Position numbers and translations under genes: made by a program
Notes under the pieces: model-generated
The model's input: only the letters and a program-made list of their open reading frames with translations
Databases searched by the model: none
What the model was told of the DNA's origin: nothing
Shown: positions 9,155 through 20,219 of the stretch, one piece after another
How the letters are laid out: the number at the start of each line of letters is the position of its first letter
How positions within the stretch are numbered: position 1 is the stretch's first letter
Source of the DNA: Desulfosarcina ovata subsp. ovata
GTDB lineage: Bacteria > Desulfobacterota > Desulfobacteria > Desulfobacterales > Desulfosarcinaceae
Length of the DNA stretch: 64,000 nucleotides
NCBI RefSeq assembly: GCF_009689005.1
Contig: NZ_AP021879.1
Coordinates: forward strand, 1,054,001-1,118,000
Direction of reading: 5' to 3'

Positions 9155-11395
9155 TTACTTTTCATGAGGAACAGTTACACTGGCGTCGGCTTCAGTGGTA
9201 TTGCCAGAATTATCTGCGCACTCGACAGTGACGGTGTAAATGCGGCCAGTACCCGTGCCGGAACGTTCAGCTCTCAAATCTACGCTTAAGTCGCCGGTGA
9301 TTTGCCAATCCGGTGACGTGTCACCGTCACCCAACCCATCAATGGGTTCGTTGCTTTGCACCTGAACGATTTGACAAGCCGGGTTCGGATCGCAGTTGTC
9401 CAAGGTTTCCGCGGTCACTGTAACCGGCACCATCTTGTGGTTAGGCGGCCATAAAGTGTCGGGGCTGACTGAAAGACTGACTTCGGGGGGGATATCATCC
9501 ACCACTGTCACTGTGGCAGTACAGGCAGCAGGAGCGCCATCCTCATTTGTTACGGTCAGCGTGACGCTATTCGCTCCCAAATCGTCACAGGTAAAATATG
9601 TTTTATCGATGCTAAGTTCGAAGCCACGACCTTCAGGATCGTAGGATCCATTGTCAACATCCCCTGCGGTAATAGTGGCTTCCCCGTTTTCATCCAGCTT
9701 AACGACGATATCCTGACAAATAGCCACGGGTGGTGTGACTGTTGCGTATTGGGATATGCCTACCGATAACAAAACGTTGCCAGTTGCAGGTTCAATTAAG
9801 TCAACTCTTCCGCAATATGGGAAATAAGGCACTACCAATTGAAAATTCGCTTCATCTCGCCATGTGGGTCCTGCATACCCCTCTTCAGCTTGTAAAATTC
9901 TCGGATCGTGGATTCCAAACTCTTCCAGCTGTGCGTTGCCGTTCGAAAAAACTTTTACCCTAAATGCGCCACCGTTTGAACGATTGCTAGGAGGACCAGC
10001 CACTACATAACTTTCTTCCTCAAGCGTGAATACTCCCCCAGATACCCGAATATTCATCCATATCGATTTGTCCGTTTCGCCAGAAGATCCTGCTTCTGCC
10101 GGTGCGGTGCCTGGGTTATTATCTATGATCCATTGGATCCTTCTTGTGGCCGGTTGTCCCCATCCGTTGGCAAATTGAGTCCCGTCATCCATAATGAAGC
10201 GGGTAGTGGTGAATTTCCACCAACCACTAGTACAGGTTGAGAACAGCCAGCAATCATCAGGGTCTCCCCAGCCTTCACTGGTTACATCAGCCCGACAATC
10301 GGCTTCAGCATCCCAAACATTTGGATTTGGATTTGGTTCGAAACGAGCTGTTCGACAACCAGGAGCGTCATCATATTCATCTGCCAGCCCAAATAACCCG
10401 TGGCCTGCTTCATGAATAAATGACCTGCCTACTGCCCCTTCAGCGCTCAGCGTGGTCGGTGGGCCCCACTGTGTCCAATCACCGAACGTGGCGATATGTA
10501 AGATAGCGTATGCATCCGCCCATGGGGCAACGCGTGTTATGTCCGCCGGAAGATTGTGAACGGTAGTTATCTCTCCCTGCGTTCTAGTGTAGTAGAAGTT
10601 GAAGCTGTCGAGATTGCCGGTTACCGGCGCCGCTGCATTCAGTCTTTGATCAATCTGATCTTGAACGTCCTGGATAAAATTTGGTAACCAGGTGTCGATA
10701 TCTGCTGGAGCTCCATAGTCTTCCTCCGGTACGAATATCACATCAATCCTGTCGCTGTGGCTTCCGATATCTCTCGTGGGCACAGGGATAACGGCCTTAT
10801 TGGCATCTGTACATAGATCATCCATCAGCCAGTAGTTGCCGGTGTCATGAACTATGACATAAGCAATAGTTTGTCCTGTGGGAGCTTCAACAGTCAATTG
10901 AGTAAGGGTTCCTGTTTCAAGGTTGTTAGCAGCCCAACCACTGGTGGCTATTAGTGAGTCATCGCTGTCATAAGCATCCAACGTCACACCGGACGACGTG
11001 CTGACAAGAACGGAACAATAACTGGCTCCTCCTCCGAGGAAATCAATTCGCCCTTGGTCACCCGATGGACCCAGCCACGCGAAAAAATTGCCGTTAGTTT
11101 CATACTGCCCATCCTGATAAGGATAAACGTTATACTTCCCAGTCCGAATATCACCATATTGCCAATTCAGACCGCCGGTATTGGTAAACTGCATACTGGG
11201 GATGGTGCTTTCTATTTCGATCTCGTCGATTCCAGATTCAAAGTTCAGGAAAAAATCATCTGAATTTCTGCAAGTGTTCGGGGCTCCAGCTGGCCAACCT
11301 GGCACAACCGTTGCTTGAGCGACTTGGAATCCAGTGGCCAAGGATAATACGGTAATAAGCACTAACGATGATATTCCAAAAGATATGCGTCTCAT
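9155..11395 (-). CDS. Secreted M64-family (IgA peptidase-like) metallopeptidase
   Basis: A 746-residue exported protein with a signal peptide over about residues 1-28 (basic start, hydrophobic core, 'AQA' cleavage region). The zinc site is 'HEAGH' at 328-332 followed by 'GLADEYDD' (DE at 339-340), the HExxHxxxxLxDEY arrangement of M64 peptidases. The N-terminal 200 residues look like a beta-rich carbohydrate- or protein-binding module. The C-terminus from about residue 575 holds HYR/cadherin-like repeats ('DIPPEVSLSVSPDTLWPPNH'). A GGGAGG site precedes the ATG. Substrate is unknown; the family name comes from bacteria that cut immunoglobulin A, which need not apply here. Lower GC than flanking housekeeping genes suggests acquisition. 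Confidence 0.82.
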   Translation of the reverse strand: MRRISFGISSLVLITVLSLATGFQVAQATVVPGWPAGAPNTCRNSDDFFLNFESGIDEIEIESTIPSMQFTNTGGLNWQYGDIRTGKYNVYPYQDGQYETNGNFFAWLGPSGDQGRIDFLGGGASYCSVLVSTSSGVTLDAYDSDDSLIATSGWAANNLETGTLTQLTVEAPTGQTIAYVIVHDTGNYWLMDDLCTDANKAVIPVPTRDIGSHSDRIDVIFVPEEDYGAPADIDTWLPNFIQDVQDQIDQRLNAAAPVTGNLDSFNFYYTRTQGEITTVHNLPADITRVAPWADAYAILHIATFGDWTQWGPPTTLSAEGAVGRSFIHEAGHGLFGLADEYDDAPGCRTARFEPNPNPNVWDAEADCRADVTSEGWGDPDDCWLFSTCTSGWWKFTTTRFIMDDGTQFANGWGQPATRRIQWIIDNNPGTAPAEAGSSGETDKSIWMNIRVSGGVFTLEEESYVVAGPPSNRSNGGAFRVKVFSNGNAQLEEFGIHDPRILQAEEGYAGPTWRDEANFQLVVPYFPYCGRVDLIEPATGNVLLSVGISQYATVTPPVAICQDIVVKLDENGEATITAGDVDNGSYDPEGRGFELSIDKTYFTCDDLGANSVTLTVTNEDGAPAACTATVTVVDDIPPEVSLSVSPDTLWPPNHKMVPVTVTAETLDNCDPNPACQIVQVQSNEPIDGLGDGDTSPDWQITGDLSVDLRAERSGTGTGRIYTVTVECADNSGNTTEADASVTVPHEK

Positions 11396-11447: not shown

Positions 11448-12020
11448 TTACTCCAAAATAAATTCATTGGAATAAACTACTTTTATTTCACCTAACTCAA
11501 TCGGTCTTTTCCAGGGTTCATTCTTGATGTTCTCTGACTTCACTGTATCCAAACTATAGTGCAGTACAAATCTGTATCTGCCGCGTTCAATCATCTCAGG
11601 TTCGGTTGAATTGTTTACTATCTTGGGCATGCAAATTTTCTGGTTCCATTCATAATGAAGGTTCGAGTTGGACCTAAGTTCCATTACAGCACCAATGGGT
11701 CGCTCATACATTGCGAATCGGCAAACCTCTCTACCATCCTCAATCAGTGGCAGACGAAACCCCAGTTTTAGCCAACCACCGTCTTTAGCCCTTTCGATGG
11801 TCCAGAATACCAATTCGGGCTGAGGATAGCCTATATACCAAACAGGAGTATCAAGGCTGTTTGTCAACACTATCTTTATAATTTCATCTCGGATGTACCG
11901 TGTCTTGTCTGTGGCCATGGAGACAGACGAAGTTTCTGCTGTTACACTTTTCATTGAACACCCTAATAGCAATAGTAAAACCATTGATCCAATAATTAGC
12001 CTGGCAATTGAACAATTCAT
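11448..12020 (-). CDS. Hypothetical lipoprotein
   Basis: A 190-residue protein with a type II signal peptide: a hydrophobic stretch ending in the lipobox 'LLGC' with Cys21 as the lipidation site. The mature part has a beta-rich, Ig-like character ('VSMATDKTRYIRDEIIKIVL', 'IERGRYRFVLHYSLD'), resembling domains that describe extensible beta-sandwich modules in secreted proteins. A strong AGGGGGTGAT site lies before the ATG. It is 52 bp upstream of the M64 peptidase on the same strand and may be cotranscribed with it. I do not recognise a specific family, and inhibitor or adaptor roles would be guesses. Confidence 0.7.
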   Translation of the reverse strand: MNCSIARLIIGSMVLLLLLGCSMKSVTAETSSVSMATDKTRYIRDEIIKIVLTNSLDTPVWYIGYPQPELVFWTIERAKDGGWLKLGFRLPLIEDGREVCRFAMYERPIGAVMELRSNSNLHYEWNQKICMPKIVNNSTEPEMIERGRYRFVLHYSLDTVKSENIKNEPWKRPIELGEIKVVYSNEFILE

Positions 12021-12967
12021 AATATCACCCCCTAAGGTTTCAGCTTAGACGGTCTTACAATCGAGTCGAAAAAAATAATCGGCTGCAATGAAAAAAGCCT
12101 TCTACTACGTTTATAGGTTAGAGAAACACAGACAGAATTCAGAGAACTGTATCACCCCCTCTCCATCGTGATTTCTGGAAAGGCACCAAAACAACCAAGG
12201 TGTGGTTGAGTAGACGCTTACGATAGATGCAGGGAGCTCTTTAGGCAACAGATAGCGCTTGGAACCATGCTCAAAATGATTATTAAGGCTTTTTTGGTGT
12301 TTCCAGATATAAGTGCAATAAAAACTACATTATTTTTAAACAAAAAAACCGAACTGATCCGCATGTGACCTTAACGATGTCACACTCGGCAGCTCGGCTA
12401 TCTAGTCCCGAAATCACTGGCCGCTAGTACGTTTCTAAATAATGAACAATTGAGCACACACCTTTAGATCCGTAGCTTTCCGCCCCCTAAAAGAGGTTGG
12501 CCTTAAGTTCAATATTATCTTGGAAATAATATAAAGATGCACAAAATGTGCACAAATGGTCCTTAGCAAATTACCGTATTATTTTGATGAGTTGCTAATT
12601 TATATTAATTATATGATTGAATAATCCTGTAATTAATTTCACAACATTGTGAAACAAAGATTTCACACTGGGTAAAATAGGTAACAATGATTGATGGCAT
12701 AATTGAGTTGAAATTGATGGGGATGTGGAATTGTTGTCGGTGACGCTAAAGCAAATTGATTGATTAGATAAACGATCCACCAGATCAAAAACCAGAGTTA
12801 CGAAAAATCCCTGCTTGGGCAGACCAATTTCAATAAAACTCTAACGCCGTAACTGCGCGTCCAGGAAAAACTAGCGGTTCATGCCCTTATTTCACTTTTT
12901 GAATTAACAACTCTGTTATTTCAATTTGTTGCGTTATCTAAAACAAAAGCATCCCGCTCTATGATCC
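12021..12967. other. AT-rich intergenic tract, no gene seen
   Basis: Nearly 950 bp with stops in all frames at short intervals and only short frames with no recognisable protein. It probably contains the promoter of the lipoprotein gene at its left end. No tRNA, CRISPR repeat or transposase remnant was recognised. Confidence 0.6.
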
Positions 12968-13397: not shown

Positions 13398-16300
13398 TTA
13401 TTTTATCGCCCGCACATAGGACTGCAGCGTACACAACGCATCCTGCCCCCGTTTGCGGGCGGCGATGCCTTTGGCTGCGGCCAGGGCGGCGGCCGGGGTG
13501 GTGACGTCGGGGATCCGGTAGCGGATGGCGGTTTTGCGGATGTAAGCGTCGTCCTGCTGGCTCTGGCTGCCGCTGGGGGTATTGACCACCAGCGAGACGT
13601 CGCCGGTCTTGATGCCGTCTACCAGATCGGGCCGACCGAATCCGAGCTTCTTGACCAGTTGGGCCTCGATGCCGTTCTTTTTCAGGAAGGCGTGGGTTCC
13701 CCGGGTGGCCTGGATACCGAAACCCATCTCATTGAACAGCCGCGCCGGTTCCAGGATGCTGGGCTTGTCCGCATCGGTGACCGTGATCAGCACATTGCCA
13801 CCCAGGGGCAGGGCCGGACCGGCCGCCTCCTGGGAGGTGAAGTAGGCCATCCCGAAAACGTCGGCCATGGCCATCACCTGGCCGGTGGAGCGCATGCGTG
13901 GGCCCAGCATGGGATCGGTCTCGGTGAAGGTGTCGAAGGGAAACACCGAGGCACGGATGCCGTAGTGGGGCAGGATCCGGCGCGGCAGGTCCATTTCGTC
14001 CAGGGTCATGCCCAGCATGATCTCAACGGCGCGCTGGGCCATGGGCACGTTGCAGATTTTGGAGACCAGGGGCAGGGTCCGGCAGGCCCAGGGCCGCACC
14101 TCGAGCAAATAGACCGTATCGTTTAGGACGGCAAAGCGGGTATTGAGCAATCCCTTGACATTCAGTTGCAGGGCGATTTTCTCGATCATGGCCGTGATCG
14201 TGTCGATGTGGCGCGGCGGTGTGCTGTAAGGGGGCACCACCACGGCGGCATCACCCGGGTGCACACCGGCCAGTTCGATGTGCTCCATGACCGTGGGTAC
14301 GTAAACCGCCTGGCCGTCGCAAAGGGCGTCGGCCTCCACCTCGATGGCATACTCCAGAAATTGTTCCAACAGCAGGGGCCGGTCGGTGGAAACCTCAACC
14401 TCCATGACATGCTGTTCCAGCATCCGGGCATCCATGATCAGGGTCTGACGCCGGCCCTGGAGATCGGTCCTTGCCGTGACCATAAGCGGGTATCCGATCG
14501 CCTCGGCCAGGTCCATGGCTTTATCCGGGCTGTTGGCCGTGCCGATCTGGCGATGCGGAATGCCCAGATCGGTCAACAGCTTGCTGAAGCGCATGCGGTC
14601 CTGACACAGAGCGGTACTTTCCGGAGCCGTGCCCAGTACGGGAAAACCGACCGCGTTCAGCTCTTCGGCCATGGTCATGGCCTTGTAACCGCCGAACTGC
14701 AGAACCACCCCGTCGGGAATCTCCGTTTGGCAGACCGCCTTGAGGTCCGCCACCGTCAGGGGCACCACGTGGGTACGGTCGGCATCTCCCGGTCCGCAGG
14801 CCGATGCGGGGTTGGCGCTGGTCATGACCACCTTGCGGCCGACGGCTTTGAGCGCCCTGGCCGCGTGAACGCAGCAGTGATCCAGCTCGATGCTCTGGCC
14901 GATACGGCCCGAAGCCGGTGCAACGACGAGCACGCTTTTGCCCAGCGGTGCGCCGTGGGAATGGTTGCCCACGATCGGCGTGTGGGTCCAGATATGGGCC
15001 GGTTCACCGGCAGCTGTGGGTCGGGCCGCAAAGGTGACATTGGCCCGGGCAAAAAGATTGGTGGCCTCGTCGACGGTGATGCCCAGCAGATTTGCCAGTC
15101 TCACCGGACAAATCCCGCCTCCGGCCGCCCTCTGGGCAATCTCGGATGAAAAGGATCCCACTCCGGCAGAGGTCACTTCGCGCTCCAGATCAGCGCGCTC
15201 GGCCAGCAACCGGATCCACCCCACCGCAATGCCGGTGACTTCGGCAATGGCATCGGCCGCGGCCCCCTTTTTCAGGGCCGCATGGATCAGGGGCAGCCGC
15301 TGCGGTGACGGCGATACCAGCCGGTGCAGCAGCATGTCGGCATCGAGTTCGTTCAGGTCAGGGAGCGGTTTCCCTTTGGACGGGTACGGGGAGCCGGCGC
15401 GTTCGGCGCTGGAAAGGGCCTGCAGAAACGTATCGCCCAGCCCCATCACGGCGCCCGTGGATTTCATACGGCTGTCCAGTTTGGCGGACTCTCCGGGGAA
15501 GCGCTCAAACTCCCAGCGCGGCAGACGGACCGCCACGGTACTGCCGGTCATGGCTGTGGCAATGCGCCGGCTGTCGCCGTTCAGGGCATGCGCCATGGAT
15601 ATCCCCAGGCTGAGTCTGGCGTGAATGGCGGCCAGGGGAAGGTCAAAGGCCTTGGCCAGAAAACCGGTCATGCGCGAATAGCCGCTGTCTACGGCAATCA
15701 CCAGAATCTCGCCGGAAGTTGATGAAACGGCGAATTTCAAATGCAGAGCACCGGTAACGCCTGTGGTTTCGGCCAGTTTTACGGCAGCCGCCTCAATCCG
15801 GTGGCGGGTTGGTTCATCGATCGTCATGGGAGGAACCACCGCTAGCGAGTCGCCGCTGTGAATCCCCACCGGATCCAGGTTTTCGGCCATGGCAACCATC
15901 TGCACGCCATTTTCCGCGTCGCGCAGCAATTCCACTTCCACTTCAAGGTAGCCCGAAAGGGCCGATTCAATGCGTACCCGGCCGGTGGCATCGGAGGGCA
16001 GGCGACCGCTCGATGACAGCTGACGCAACTCTTCCACGTTGAAGGCAACCCCGTTGCGCACGGTCAAGTCGGGCTCAATGCAGCGCACAAAAACCGGATA
16101 ACCGGTTTTTTCAGCCAGGGAGGCCGCATCGGCGATGCTGTCAGCGATCTCCCCTTGGGGAACAGAAAGGCCCTGATCCTCTGCCGCGGCAAAAAACGCC
16201 GACGGGTCATGGGCCAGTGCCAGGCTGTTTTCGGTAACCCCCAAGAGCCCGATGTTGTTTTCCTTCAAAAAGCCCGATTGGGTCAGGTCCGCGGCCAGAC

Positions 16301-16586
16301 GCAAGGCTGTCTTTCCACCGACAGAGGGAAAAATGGCGGTTGGTTTTTCTCTTAAAAGGATTTCCGTCATAGCCTCTACGGAAAGCGGTACCAGGTAGGT
16401 GCGATCAGCCATGTCGGCATCGGCAGCCAGGGCGGAAGGGTCGCAGTGGGCCATCACGGTTTGAATGCCGGCCGACTTGAACACCTCGCATGCCCGGCAG
16501 GCAGCGTCGTCATACGCGCCTGTCTGTCCGATTCGGATGGGTCCGGCGCCGATGATGAGAATTTTCTGGATGGGGGTTGAGGTCAT
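13398..16586 (-). CDS. CarB-like carbamoyl-phosphate synthase large-subunit paralogue, degenerate ATP sites
   Basis: A 1062-residue protein collinear with CarB: N-terminal ATP-grasp half (1-400), oligomerisation region (400-545), second ATP-grasp half (550-930) and C-terminal MGS-like allosteric domain ('LLNEMG'-type region to 'VVNTPSG'). Key residues have changed. In the first half, where CarB has IEMNPR, this has I-A-V-D-S-G (297-302), losing the metal-binding Glu and Asn. The Gly-rich loop after R168 reads 'CIEPDLTVRNG', without the GGSGGG run. In the second half E829 is kept, but Asn becomes R831, Arg becomes W833, and the loop Arg becomes T704. No carA is adjacent. It may be an inactive or repurposed paralogue rather than the housekeeping enzyme. 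Confidence 0.8.
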   Translation of the reverse strand: MTSTPIQKILIIGAGPIRIGQTGAYDDAACRACEVFKSAGIQTVMAHCDPSALAADADMADRTYLVPLSVEAMTEILLREKPTAIFPSVGGKTALRLAADLTQSGFLKENNIGLLGVTENSLALAHDPSAFFAAAEDQGLSVPQGEIADSIADAASLAEKTGYPVFVRCIEPDLTVRNGVAFNVEELRQLSSSGRLPSDATGRVRIESALSGYLEVEVELLRDAENGVQMVAMAENLDPVGIHSGDSLAVVPPMTIDEPTRHRIEAAAVKLAETTGVTGALHLKFAVSSTSGEILVIAVDSGYSRMTGFLAKAFDLPLAAIHARLSLGISMAHALNGDSRRIATAMTGSTVAVRLPRWEFERFPGESAKLDSRMKSTGAVMGLGDTFLQALSSAERAGSPYPSKGKPLPDLNELDADMLLHRLVSPSPQRLPLIHAALKKGAAADAIAEVTGIAVGWIRLLAERADLEREVTSAGVGSFSSEIAQRAAGGGICPVRLANLLGITVDEATNLFARANVTFAARPTAAGEPAHIWTHTPIVGNHSHGAPLGKSVLVVAPASGRIGQSIELDHCCVHAARALKAVGRKVVMTSANPASACGPGDADRTHVVPLTVADLKAVCQTEIPDGVVLQFGGYKAMTMAEELNAVGFPVLGTAPESTALCQDRMRFSKLLTDLGIPHRQIGTANSPDKAMDLAEAIGYPLMVTARTDLQGRRQTLIMDARMLEQHVMEVEVSTDRPLLLEQFLEYAIEVEADALCDGQAVYVPTVMEHIELAGVHPGDAAVVVPPYSTPPRHIDTITAMIEKIALQLNVKGLLNTRFAVLNDTVYLLEVRPWACRTLPLVSKICNVPMAQRAVEIMLGMTLDEMDLPRRILPHYGIRASVFPFDTFTETDPMLGPRMRSTGQVMAMADVFGMAYFTSQEAAGPALPLGGNVLITVTDADKPSILEPARLFNEMGFGIQATRGTHAFLKKNGIEAQLVKKLGFGRPDLVDGIKTGDVSLVVNTPSGSQSQQDDAYIRKTAIRYRIPDVTTPAAALAAAKGIAARKRGQDALCTLQSYVRAIK

Positions 16587-16637
16587 GGAATCTCCTTGGA
16601 TACGAGGCGGTGCGGAACCGTTGGTACGCTAATAGTA

Positions 16638-17405: not shown

Positions 17406-20219
17406 ATGGATTACAAGAAGACCTTGAATCTTCCAAATACCGGCTTTCCCATGAAAGCCAACCTGGCCGCAAAAGAACCCAACCAGCTGAGCGCCTGGGA
17501 AAGCGAAGGGCTTTACCCGCGCATCCGCGAAATGTCCAAGGGCCGGCCCCAGTTTATCCTGCACGATGGCCCGCCATACGCCAACGGCCACATCCACATC
17601 GGTACGGCCCTGAACAAAATCCTCAAAGACATCATCATCCGCTCACGGCAGATGGCCGGCTTCGACGCCCCCTATGTTCCGGGCTGGGACTGCCACGGCC
17701 TGCCCATCGAGCACAATGTGGACAAGGAGCTGGGTTCCAAGAAAAAGGAGATGACCCAGGCCCAGGTGCGCCGCCAGTGCCGGGTCTACGCTGAGAAGTT
17801 CATCGATATCCAGCGAAACGAATTCAAGCGCCTGGGCGTGATGGGCGAGTGGGACAATCCCTACCTGACCATGAACTACCCGTACGAGGCGACCATCGCC
17901 AAGGAGTGCTGCAAGTTCGCCCTGGACGGCAGCCTTTTTCGCAGCAAGAAGCCGATCCACTGGTGCTGCAGCTGCAAAACGGCGCTGGCCGAAGCCGAGA
18001 TCGAATATCACGACGAAACCTCGCCGTCGGTCTATGTCAAGTTCGCCCTAAAGGACGACCCGGCCCAGATCGATGACCGGCTGGCCGGGCGGAACGTGGC
18101 CGTGGTGATCTGGACCACCACCCCCTGGACCCTGCCGGCCAACCTGGCCGTGGCCCTGCATCCCGATTTCGACTACGCGGCCGTGGAGGTCGACGGTGGT
18201 CAGGTGCTGATCCTGGCCCGGGAACTGGTCGACGACTGCATGAAAATTTTCGGTTTCGCCGACTACCGCATCCTGGCCGAATTCAAGGCCGGCGCCCTGG
18301 AAAACAAACGCTGCCAACACCCCTTCTACGACCGTGATTCGCTGATCATCCTGGGCGATCACGTGACCCTCGAGGCGGGCACCGGATGCGTTCACACCGC
18401 CCCCGGTCACGGCCGGGAGGACTACGACGTGGGACTGCAGTATGGCCTGGACGCCTACTCGCCGGTCAACGACAACGGCGTCTTCACCGATGACGTCAAG
18501 CTGTTCGCCGGCCAGTTCGTCTTCAAGGCCAATGACGCCATCAACCAGACCCTGGCCGACAGGGGTGTGCTGCTGGCCAAGACCGACATCGCCCACAGCT
18601 ACCCGCACTGCTGGCGCTGCAAACGGCCGGTGATTTTCCGGGCCACGCCCCAGTGGTTCATCTCCATGGAGAAGACCGGGCTGCGCAAGAAGGCCCTCGA
18701 AGAGATCGACCAGGTGCAGTGGATTCCCCATTGGGGCCGTGAACGCATCTTCGGCATGATCGAAAACCGGCCGGACTGGTGCGTCTCCCGCCAACGCGCC
18801 TGGGGTGTGCCGATCACCGTTTTCATCTGCGAGAAATGCGATACGGTGCACATGGACGAGGCGACCATGAACCACATCCACGATCAGTTCGCCGCCCATG
18901 GGGCCGACGTGTGGTTCGAAAAGGATGTTCACGAACTGATGCCCGAAGGCGCGGTGTGCAAGCACTGCGGCCACACCGGGTTTACCAAGGAAGACGACAT
19001 CCTGGACGTGTGGTTCGATTCGGGCGTCAGCCAGGCCGCCGTTGTCGAGGCGCGCGATTACCTGCGCTGGCCGGCCGATCTCTACCTGGAGGGCAGTGAC
19101 CAGCACCGCGGCTGGTTCCACAGCGCCCTGCTCACTGCCGTTGGCACCCGCGGCAAAGCGCCTTACAAGGCCGTACTGACCCACGGATTCGTGGTCGATG
19201 CCGAGGGCAAAAAGATGTCCAAATCCCTGGGCAACGTGGTGGCCCCCAAGGCGGTCATCGACAAGTACGGTGCCGAGATCCTGCGCATGTGGGTGTCGGC
19301 CTCGGATTACCGTGACGATGTGCGCATCTCCGACACCATCCTCAAACAACTCAGCGACGCCTATCGCCGGATCCGCAACACCAGCCGGTTCATCCTAGGC
19401 AACCTGAGCGATTTTGCCCCCCGGGACGATGCGCTGCCCGTCGATCAGATGCTGGAGATCGACCGCTTCGCCCTGCACAAGCTCCAGGGGCTGATCGATC
19501 GCGCCCTCAAGGCCTACGACACCTACGAGTTCCACGTGATCTACCACCGGCTGTACAACTACTGTACCGTGGATCTCTCCTCCTTTTACCTGGATATCCT
19601 CAAGGACCGGCTCTACACCAGTCCGCCGGCATCCCGGGAGCGGCGCAGCGCCCAGACGGCCATGTACGCCATCCTGGATGCCATGGCCCGCATCATGGCA
19701 CCGATCATGCCGTTCACGGCGGAAGAGATCTGGAAGCACATGCCGGCCATGCCGGGCAAGGCCGAAAGTATCCATCTGGTGGAATTTCCCAAGGTGGACG
19801 CCGGGCTCACAGACGATGCACTGGCCGCCAAATGGGAGACCCTGATCAATGTGCGCGCCGAAGTGACCAAGGCCCTTGAGAAGGCCCGTGCCGAAAAGGT
19901 GATCGGCCACAGCCTGGATGCCGCGGTCACCGTCGGGCTCTCGGACGACCTTTACACGGTCATGGCCGACTTTGCACCCGACCTGCGCACCATCCTGATC
20001 GTTTCCGGGGCTGAGATGGTCCAGGCGGAACTGGCCGGTGCCTACAAGGGCCAGGAGACCGAAGGCGTCTGGGTACAGGTGGCCTCGGCCGGTGGAGAGA
20101 AGTGCCAGCGCTGCTGGGTCCATGACGACAGTGTGGGCACCATCGCCGACCATCCGACCATCTGCTGTCGCTGCAGGGATGCCCTGACGCAGATCGACCT
20201 TGCCGGTACGGGAGCCTAA
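17406..20219 (+). CDS. ileS: Isoleucine--tRNA ligase
   Basis: A 937-residue class I aminoacyl-tRNA synthetase of the bacterial type. The HIGH-type signature is in '[12 protein letters not shown]', the editing (CP1) domain includes '[13 protein letters not shown]', and KMSKS lies at 603-607. The C-terminal zinc finger has two cysteine pairs, 'CQRCW' and 'CCRCRDAL'. The enzyme charges tRNA-Ile and hydrolyses mischarged Val-tRNA-Ile in the cytoplasm. CGGAGG precedes the ATG at good spacing. lspA begins 10 bp after the stop, the ileS-lspA pairing common across proteobacteria. Confidence 0.97.

Follow-up and report, generated by a model that had tools for sequence, protein, structure and literature searches.

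A degenerate large subunit of carbamoyl-phosphate synthase in Desulfosarcina and related genera, probably kept as a nucleotide-binding regulator

Catalytically dead paralogues that regulate an enzyme are, to our knowledge, known mostly from eukaryotes. Within the pyrimidine pathway, the pseudo-dihydroorotase of bacterial aspartate transcarbamoylases is an inactive homologue that serves as an assembly subunit and has no allosteric nucleotide site itself. The prozyme of trypanosome AdoMetDC is a catalytically dead paralogue which activates its active partner (PMC5201418), and human CPS1 carries an inactive glutaminase-like domain, S2 (PMC4655335). In the open-access literature we found no described CarB pseudoenzyme and, among ATP-grasp pseudoenzymes, only the tubulin-ligase TTLL12.

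The CarB protein of E. coli combines two ATP-grasp halves with a C-terminal MGS-like regulatory domain, in which K954, T974, G976, T977, K993 and N1015 belong to the UMP/IMP site of the crystal structures. Two of these residues, T977 and K993, have been tied experimentally to UMP inhibition and binding, and E. coli CarB dimers form via the regulatory domains (PMC6245113). Here we describe a CarB paralogue of the genus Desulfosarcina, termed pseudo-CarB, in which we would expect, with moderate confidence and on the strength of sequence comparison, a catalytically dead large subunit of carbamoyl-phosphate synthase (CPSase) whose two ATP sites are lost and which is kept as a regulator binding a nucleoside monophosphate (NMP).

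The pseudo-carB gene and its relatives

The window analysed here, a stretch of 64,000 nucleotides, comes from the single-contig 7.63-Mb genome of Desulfosarcina ovata subsp. ovata (Table 1). The pseudo-carB product can be aligned with E. coli CarB (1A9X) from one terminus to the other and, as had been predicted from the sequence at the outset, retains its full length, its MGS domain and the complete CarB domain order (pre-ATP-grasp twice, ATP-grasp twice, oligomerisation, MGS), the oligomerisation domain being weak and below the Pfam cut-off. The NCBIfam model NF003671 (CarB) recognises the protein with 805 bits (cut-off 599), and TIGR01369 gives 719 bits, below its cut-off of 1027. A strong Shine-Dalgarno sequence of similar kind precedes the gene in all seven Desulfosarcina orthologues examined.

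Table 1. Features of the pseudo-carB locus in the window (residues in the first column are those of the window protein; substitutions follow E. coli CarB numbering)
Feature	Coordinates	Strand	Basis and remarks
pseudo-carB, degenerate CarB, 1062 aa	13398..16586	minus	One open frame, ATG start, homology to CarB
Shine-Dalgarno AAGGAG	16592..16597	minus	5 nt 5' of the pseudo-carB ATG
Pre-ATP-grasp domain 1, residues 6-122	16221..16571	minus	Pfam PF25596
ATP-grasp 1, residues 130-332	15591..16199	minus	Pfam PF02786; R129P, Gly loop lost, Q285K, E299A, N301D, R303G
Oligomerisation domain, residues 422-500	15087..15323	minus	Pfam PF02787, 22.3 bits, under the 26.6 cut-off
ATP-grasp 2, residues 670-832	14091..14579	minus	Pfam PF02222; R715T, Gly loop altered, D753E, Q829R, N843R, R845W; E761 and H788 kept
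MGS-like regulatory domain, residues 944-1029	13500..13757	minus	Pfam PF02142
HD-domain (HD_3/YfbR-like) predicted 5'-deoxynucleotidase, 197 aa	16638..17231	minus	Pfam PF13023, 6e-57
ileS	17406..20219	plus	Divergent neighbour, then lspA and holA; synteny anchor

The genome also encodes the canonical pair that the original prediction had expected elsewhere: intact carA and carB at 4019261-4023709, followed by purF and about 2.95 Mb from pseudo-carB, the two CarB proteins being 36% identical. Judged from its residues, this CarAB would be the active paralogue. The sole CarA of the genome adjoins the canonical CarB and none lies beside pseudo-carB; since this single CarA pairs with the canonical CarB, pseudo-CarB is, as predicted, without a CarA of its own. 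Exactly one CarA was likewise found in 10 of 11 related genomes checked, and none in G040, which is 83% complete.

Three kinds of CarB can be distinguished among the relatives, namely a canonical form present in nearly every genome, a degenerate form, and a form which we name CarB2, a second intact CarB without its own CarA that occurs in genomes across the order. CarB2 keeps all catalytic residues and is the nearest relative of the window protein, to which it is 38-41% identical. It is often paired with a PurF-like gene; PurF2 was considered as an obligatory partner and rejected, being absent from the window's genome. One genome (G020) has a third CarB, which is intact.

A degenerate CarB was detected in 16 of the 30 genomes of the family, spanning six genera: the window's genus accounts for nine (out of 13 genomes), and the other seven are G013, G015, G016, G017, G019, G021 and G024; several species of the genus lack the gene. 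None was seen outside the family among the best 30 matches in a 291-genome sample of the order, from which very divergent copies could escape, and a scan of a contig collection yielded two relatives only, in D. widdelii and one Desulfosarcina MAG. Fragmented matches in G026, G027 and G056 and an N-terminal match in G019 (L074) were rejected as degenerate forms, since they belong to intact or canonical CarBs whose contigs or frames are broken. In trees all full-length degenerate copies are set apart from CarB2 and canonical CarB with branch support of 100/100; as the branches are long, a single origin is likely rather than certain.

Most of the degenerate genes occupy one locus, in the order rsmG, pseudo-carB and the divergent ileS-lspA-holA group, with a CoA-transferase gene beyond rsmG in several genomes. 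Both flanks are present in G003, G005, G008, G015, G016 and G021, and one flank in most of the other genomes. Two neighbouring open reading frames (L071:8483-9532 and 9863-10639) were dropped as conserved genes, since they run antisense to the CoA-transferase/rsmG stretch. An intact CarB2 occupies the CoA-transferase-rsmG site in G041 and G054, which belong to other families of the order, and G003 and G008 also have an intact CarB2, located elsewhere than the pseudo-carB locus. The simplest history would thus be that the ATP sites of a CarB2 at the rsmG locus were already lost in the family's ancestor, since when pseudo-CarB has probably been retained.

Residues lost and kept in the ATP-grasp halves

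In what follows, residues carry E. coli CarB numbers, and loss or retention is counted over the 11 full-length degenerate CarBs. The six substitutions from which erosion of the ATP sites had been predicted are each present in the window protein when compared with E. coli CarB (E299 to A298, N301 to D300 and R303 to G302 in the first half; R715 to T704, N843 to R831 and R845 to W833 in the second), and to these must be added R129 to P128, Q285 to K, Q829 to R and D753 to E. The claimed loss of the Gly-rich loop applies wholly to the first half, where MGGSGGG has become DLTVRNG, but only partly to the second, where VLGGRAM has become DLQGRRQ. Among Q285, E299, N301, R303, R715, Q829, E841, N843, R845 and the Gly loops, E841 alone is retained in the window protein.

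This pattern extends throughout the degenerate set. In all 11 members E299 is replaced by A, G or S, the metal ligands Q285 and Q829 by K/R and R respectively and D753 by E, while N843 and G721 are absent; R845 is retained once, R129 twice and R715 three times. By contrast, E299, N843, G721, Q285 and Q829 are retained in 18 of 18 CarB2 proteins and in every canonical CarB examined, and because these five are lost in every degenerate member chance can be excluded. There is nonetheless no support for an excess loss of catalytic residues as such: 44% of them are retained, as against 60% of the other universally conserved ATP-domain residues, and at the level of residues kept in all members no such excess is seen (P = 0.80). 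Constraint has therefore been relaxed across both ATP-grasp domains and not targeted at the active sites, and what both domains display is a general relaxation together with a few directed, fixed replacements. The most striking of the replacements is the symmetrical change of Gln to Lys/Arg at both metal sites.

Retention is no less uniform, with R169, G241, H243, F755, E761 and G786 kept in 11 of 11 and E215 nearly invariant. In E. coli CarB, R169, H243, E761 and H788 contact substrates, and since these four are mostly kept, some binding of ligand at the ATP sites is possible, which weighs against regarding the sites as wholly dead. The lysines and arginines at the positions of the metal-ligand glutamines may form salt bridges with the retained E215 and E761, and could so hold together the lobes of the ATP-grasp domains in place of Mg-ATP. 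An AlphaFold2 prediction from a two-sequence input (mean pLDDT 33) supports no structural claim.

Selection on the regulatory domain and possible functions

Purifying selection on the orthologues, for which the original prediction had proposed a test, is borne out by dN/dS values, which were obtained by a simple counting method from few pairs of close species and for the whole gene are 0.17-0.22 in pseudo-carB, 0.07-0.10 in canonical CarB and 0.11 in CarB2. When resolved by domain (two close pairs), the MGS domain gives 0.04-0.05 in the degenerate form, as against 0.14 (CarB2) and 0.08 (canonical CarB), and ATP-grasp 1 gives 0.19-0.20, 0.09 and 0.03, respectively. Both ATP domains of pseudo-carB remain under purifying selection (about 0.11-0.20), and the oligomerisation domain is its fastest-evolving and least conserved part (0.32-0.55). 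Protein identity follows the same trend: within the degenerate set no domain is better conserved than MGS (84%), whereas within CarB2 none is less conserved (66%). Relative to CarB2, the selective gradient in degenerate CarB is inverted toward the MGS domain. The window protein retains the equivalents of the six UMP/IMP-pocket residues named above, all of which are invariant in 11 of 11 degenerate CarBs, and pocket residues are over-represented among the MGS invariants (P = 0.002 within the domain). A point against a regulatory reading is that the ornithine-site residue E892 and the nucleotide-site residue T1017 are changed in pseudo-CarB, the latter differing also in CarB2.

Pseudo-CarB thus combines homology to an active enzyme and loss of its essential residues with purifying selection across species, and the predicted maintenance of a non-catalytic paralogue is supported by both the orthologous frames and the selection data. 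The roles originally proposed were those of a sensor, a regulator of the true synthase or a new ligase, and the conservation pattern favours a sensor or regulator over the ligase, because constraint is now strongest on the UMP/IMP domain and not on the ATP sites. We would expect such a protein to make no carbamoyl phosphate and to bind an NMP at its MGS domain, UMP or IMP being the obvious candidates. Binding would shift the conformation of the unit formed by the MGS and ATP-grasp 2 domains, and the signal would pass via the retained C-terminal half to a protein that reads it out. The best candidates for this partner would be the genome's own CarAB, plausible because the regulatory domains mediate dimerisation of E. 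coli CarB (PMC6245113), or the adjacent HD nucleotidase where it is present.

The HD gene lies 51 bp upstream of pseudo-carB on the same strand and is a probable operon partner. PDB matches of its product include human HDDC2 and YfbR, a 5'-deoxynucleotidase. Orthologues within the genus (78-86% identical) are confined to G003, G006 and G008, in each case directly upstream of pseudo-carB, so that an HD gene stands beside four of the nine pseudo-carB genes of the genus and beside none outside it. Since the other species lack the gene, the HD protein can be an occasional but not an obligatory partner. A more far-reaching and distinctly tentative proposal is that in this bacterial family a CPSase has turned into a dedicated nucleotide-sensing regulator, with the allosteric domain as its core and the dead catalytic domains as an effector surface, and that in some species it adjusts pyrimidine and purine pools together with an HD 5'-nucleotidase transcribed from the same operon.

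Conservation of the MGS domain could, however, stem from a protein interface and not from nucleotide sensing. On such an account pseudo-CarB would be a structural subunit, scaffolding for example the CarAB oligomer or the HD nucleotidase, with the MGS domain serving as an interface without a ligand. The dimers of E. coli CarB, formed via these same domains (PMC6245113), would provide a precedent, and the MGS invariants, 44 of 120 columns, extend beyond the pocket; yet the enrichment of nucleotide-pocket residues among these invariants and the status of the oligomerisation domain as the least conserved part both argue against this account, which we regard as rather unlikely.

Similarly improbable, by a narrow step more so, is a new or altered ATP-grasp ligase, in which the sites would have been rebuilt, with Lys/Arg for metal ligands and Trp at 845, for another substrate or a metal-free mechanism. 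The substitutions are indeed patterned and not random (position 285 is K/R, 753 is E and 829 is R in every member), R169, H243 and E761 are invariant and E215 nearly so, and selection on the ATP domains is still purifying. But the Gly loops, R303/R845 and R715 vary freely among members, and it is the regulatory domain that has come under the strongest constraint. Moreover, ATP-grasp catalysis requires an acidic/Asn metal pair, and no member retains E299 or N843.

Slow decay of a CarB2 pseudogene devoid of present function would account for the long branches, the absence of the gene from several species of the genus and the frameshifted copies in the drafts G006 and G021. Frameshifts scattered among relatives had been named at the outset as the sign of such decay, but those two copies are the only ones so affected, and both come from assemblies of 510-560 contigs, whereas 11 full-length orthologues have intact frames free of internal stops, four of them in genomes of one or two contigs. 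With the Shine-Dalgarno sequence also retained in seven of seven, and because of the selection data, in the MGS domain above all, decay is excluded as a general explanation and we consider it very improbable. Least credible of all is a working CarA-independent (ammonia-using) CPSase like CarB2, for although pseudo-CarB has its locus and ancestry in common with intact CarB2 and NF003671 names it CarB, the essential metal and nucleotide positions kept by CarB2 are all changed and the TIGR01369 score falls short of the cut-off.

Comparison with known systems

If a nucleotide-binding regulator is indeed what has been kept, pseudo-CarB would represent a lineage-wide CarB pseudoenzyme in a core pathway, in which selection has measurably switched away from the catalytic domain and onto the allosteric one, and would provide a clean system for exploring how a pure sensor can arise from an allosteric enzyme. 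It would also serve as a warning, since automatic annotation calls such genes carbamoyl-phosphate synthase, the window protein itself passing the NF003671 threshold.

With E. coli CarB (1A9X, 1BXR) the protein has in common its full length, its domain order and the nucleotide pocket of the MGS domain, but differs in that both ATP/metal sites are destroyed, no carA gene is adjacent, the oligomerisation domain evolves fast and constraint is inverted toward the MGS domain. Pseudo-CarB has in common with CarB2 the T948/P1017 variants in the MGS domain and, as seen in G041 and G054, the rsmG locus; CarB2, on the other hand, retains every catalytic residue and often has a PurF-like gene as partner. 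The human CPS1 is likewise a case of catalytic-site loss inside the CPSase family, but its phosphorylation sites are intact, whereas both are lost in pseudo-CarB. With pseudo-dihydroorotase it has in common that an inactive homologue from the pyrimidine pathway is kept as a non-catalytic part, although the families are unrelated. The AdoMetDC prozyme, also a dead paralogue selected beside an active enzyme, offers a model for how pseudo-CarB might act, with the differences that the partner of pseudo-CarB is a candidate only, that its ancestral allosteric domain is the most constrained part, and that fold and pathway are not the same.

Degenerate CarB copies in relatives

The gene for the degenerate CarB, which has lost essential residues in both ATP sites and has no CarA of its own, carries frameshifts in L051 (genome G006) and L072 (G021); both assemblies are fragmented, so these may represent either real decay or assembly error. 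More strongly diverged degenerate CarBs are found in three other genera of the same family (G013, locus L105; G024, L106; G016, L104), in all of which residue 285 (E. coli numbering) is R instead of K, with H788N or E841D in some. They may differ in specificity from the Desulfosarcina form.

A c-di-GMP-I riboswitch in the window

The window also contains a c-di-GMP-I riboswitch, downstream of which lie two ORFs on the same strand that matched no family in Pfam or NCBIfam.

CarB2 and a glutaminase-dead PurF paralogue

An intact second CarB, here termed CarB2, is common throughout the order, retaining all catalytic residues while lacking its own CarA; the genomes bearing it hold a single CarA.

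Coordinates of the features (CarB2 and PurF2 loci are examples; further PurF2 copies exist)
Feature	Position	Strand	Remark
CarB2	L036:5639-8839	+
CarB2	L039:5588-8857	-
CarB2	L049:5608-8811	-
PurF2	L049:4162-5568	-
PurF2	L048:4083-5489	-
PurF2	L050:8690-10084	+
PurF2	L151:4551-5948	-
PurF2	L152:4753-6150	+
c-di-GMP-I riboswitch	window 12385-12511	-	Rfam RF01051, 39 bits
Downstream ORF	window 11448-12020	-
Downstream ORF	window 9155-11395	-

CarB2 frequently neighbours the gene for PurF2, a paralogue with ~32% identity to canonical PurF that is kept across the order (~36 of 60 genomes). Its N-terminus reads MGGLFG, Gly replacing the catalytic Cys1, and R73, N101 and D127 are missing, while the PRPP loop is retained. 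Going by sequence, glutaminase-dead PurF2 and CarA-less CarB2 look like an ammonia-using or PRPP-sensing pair.
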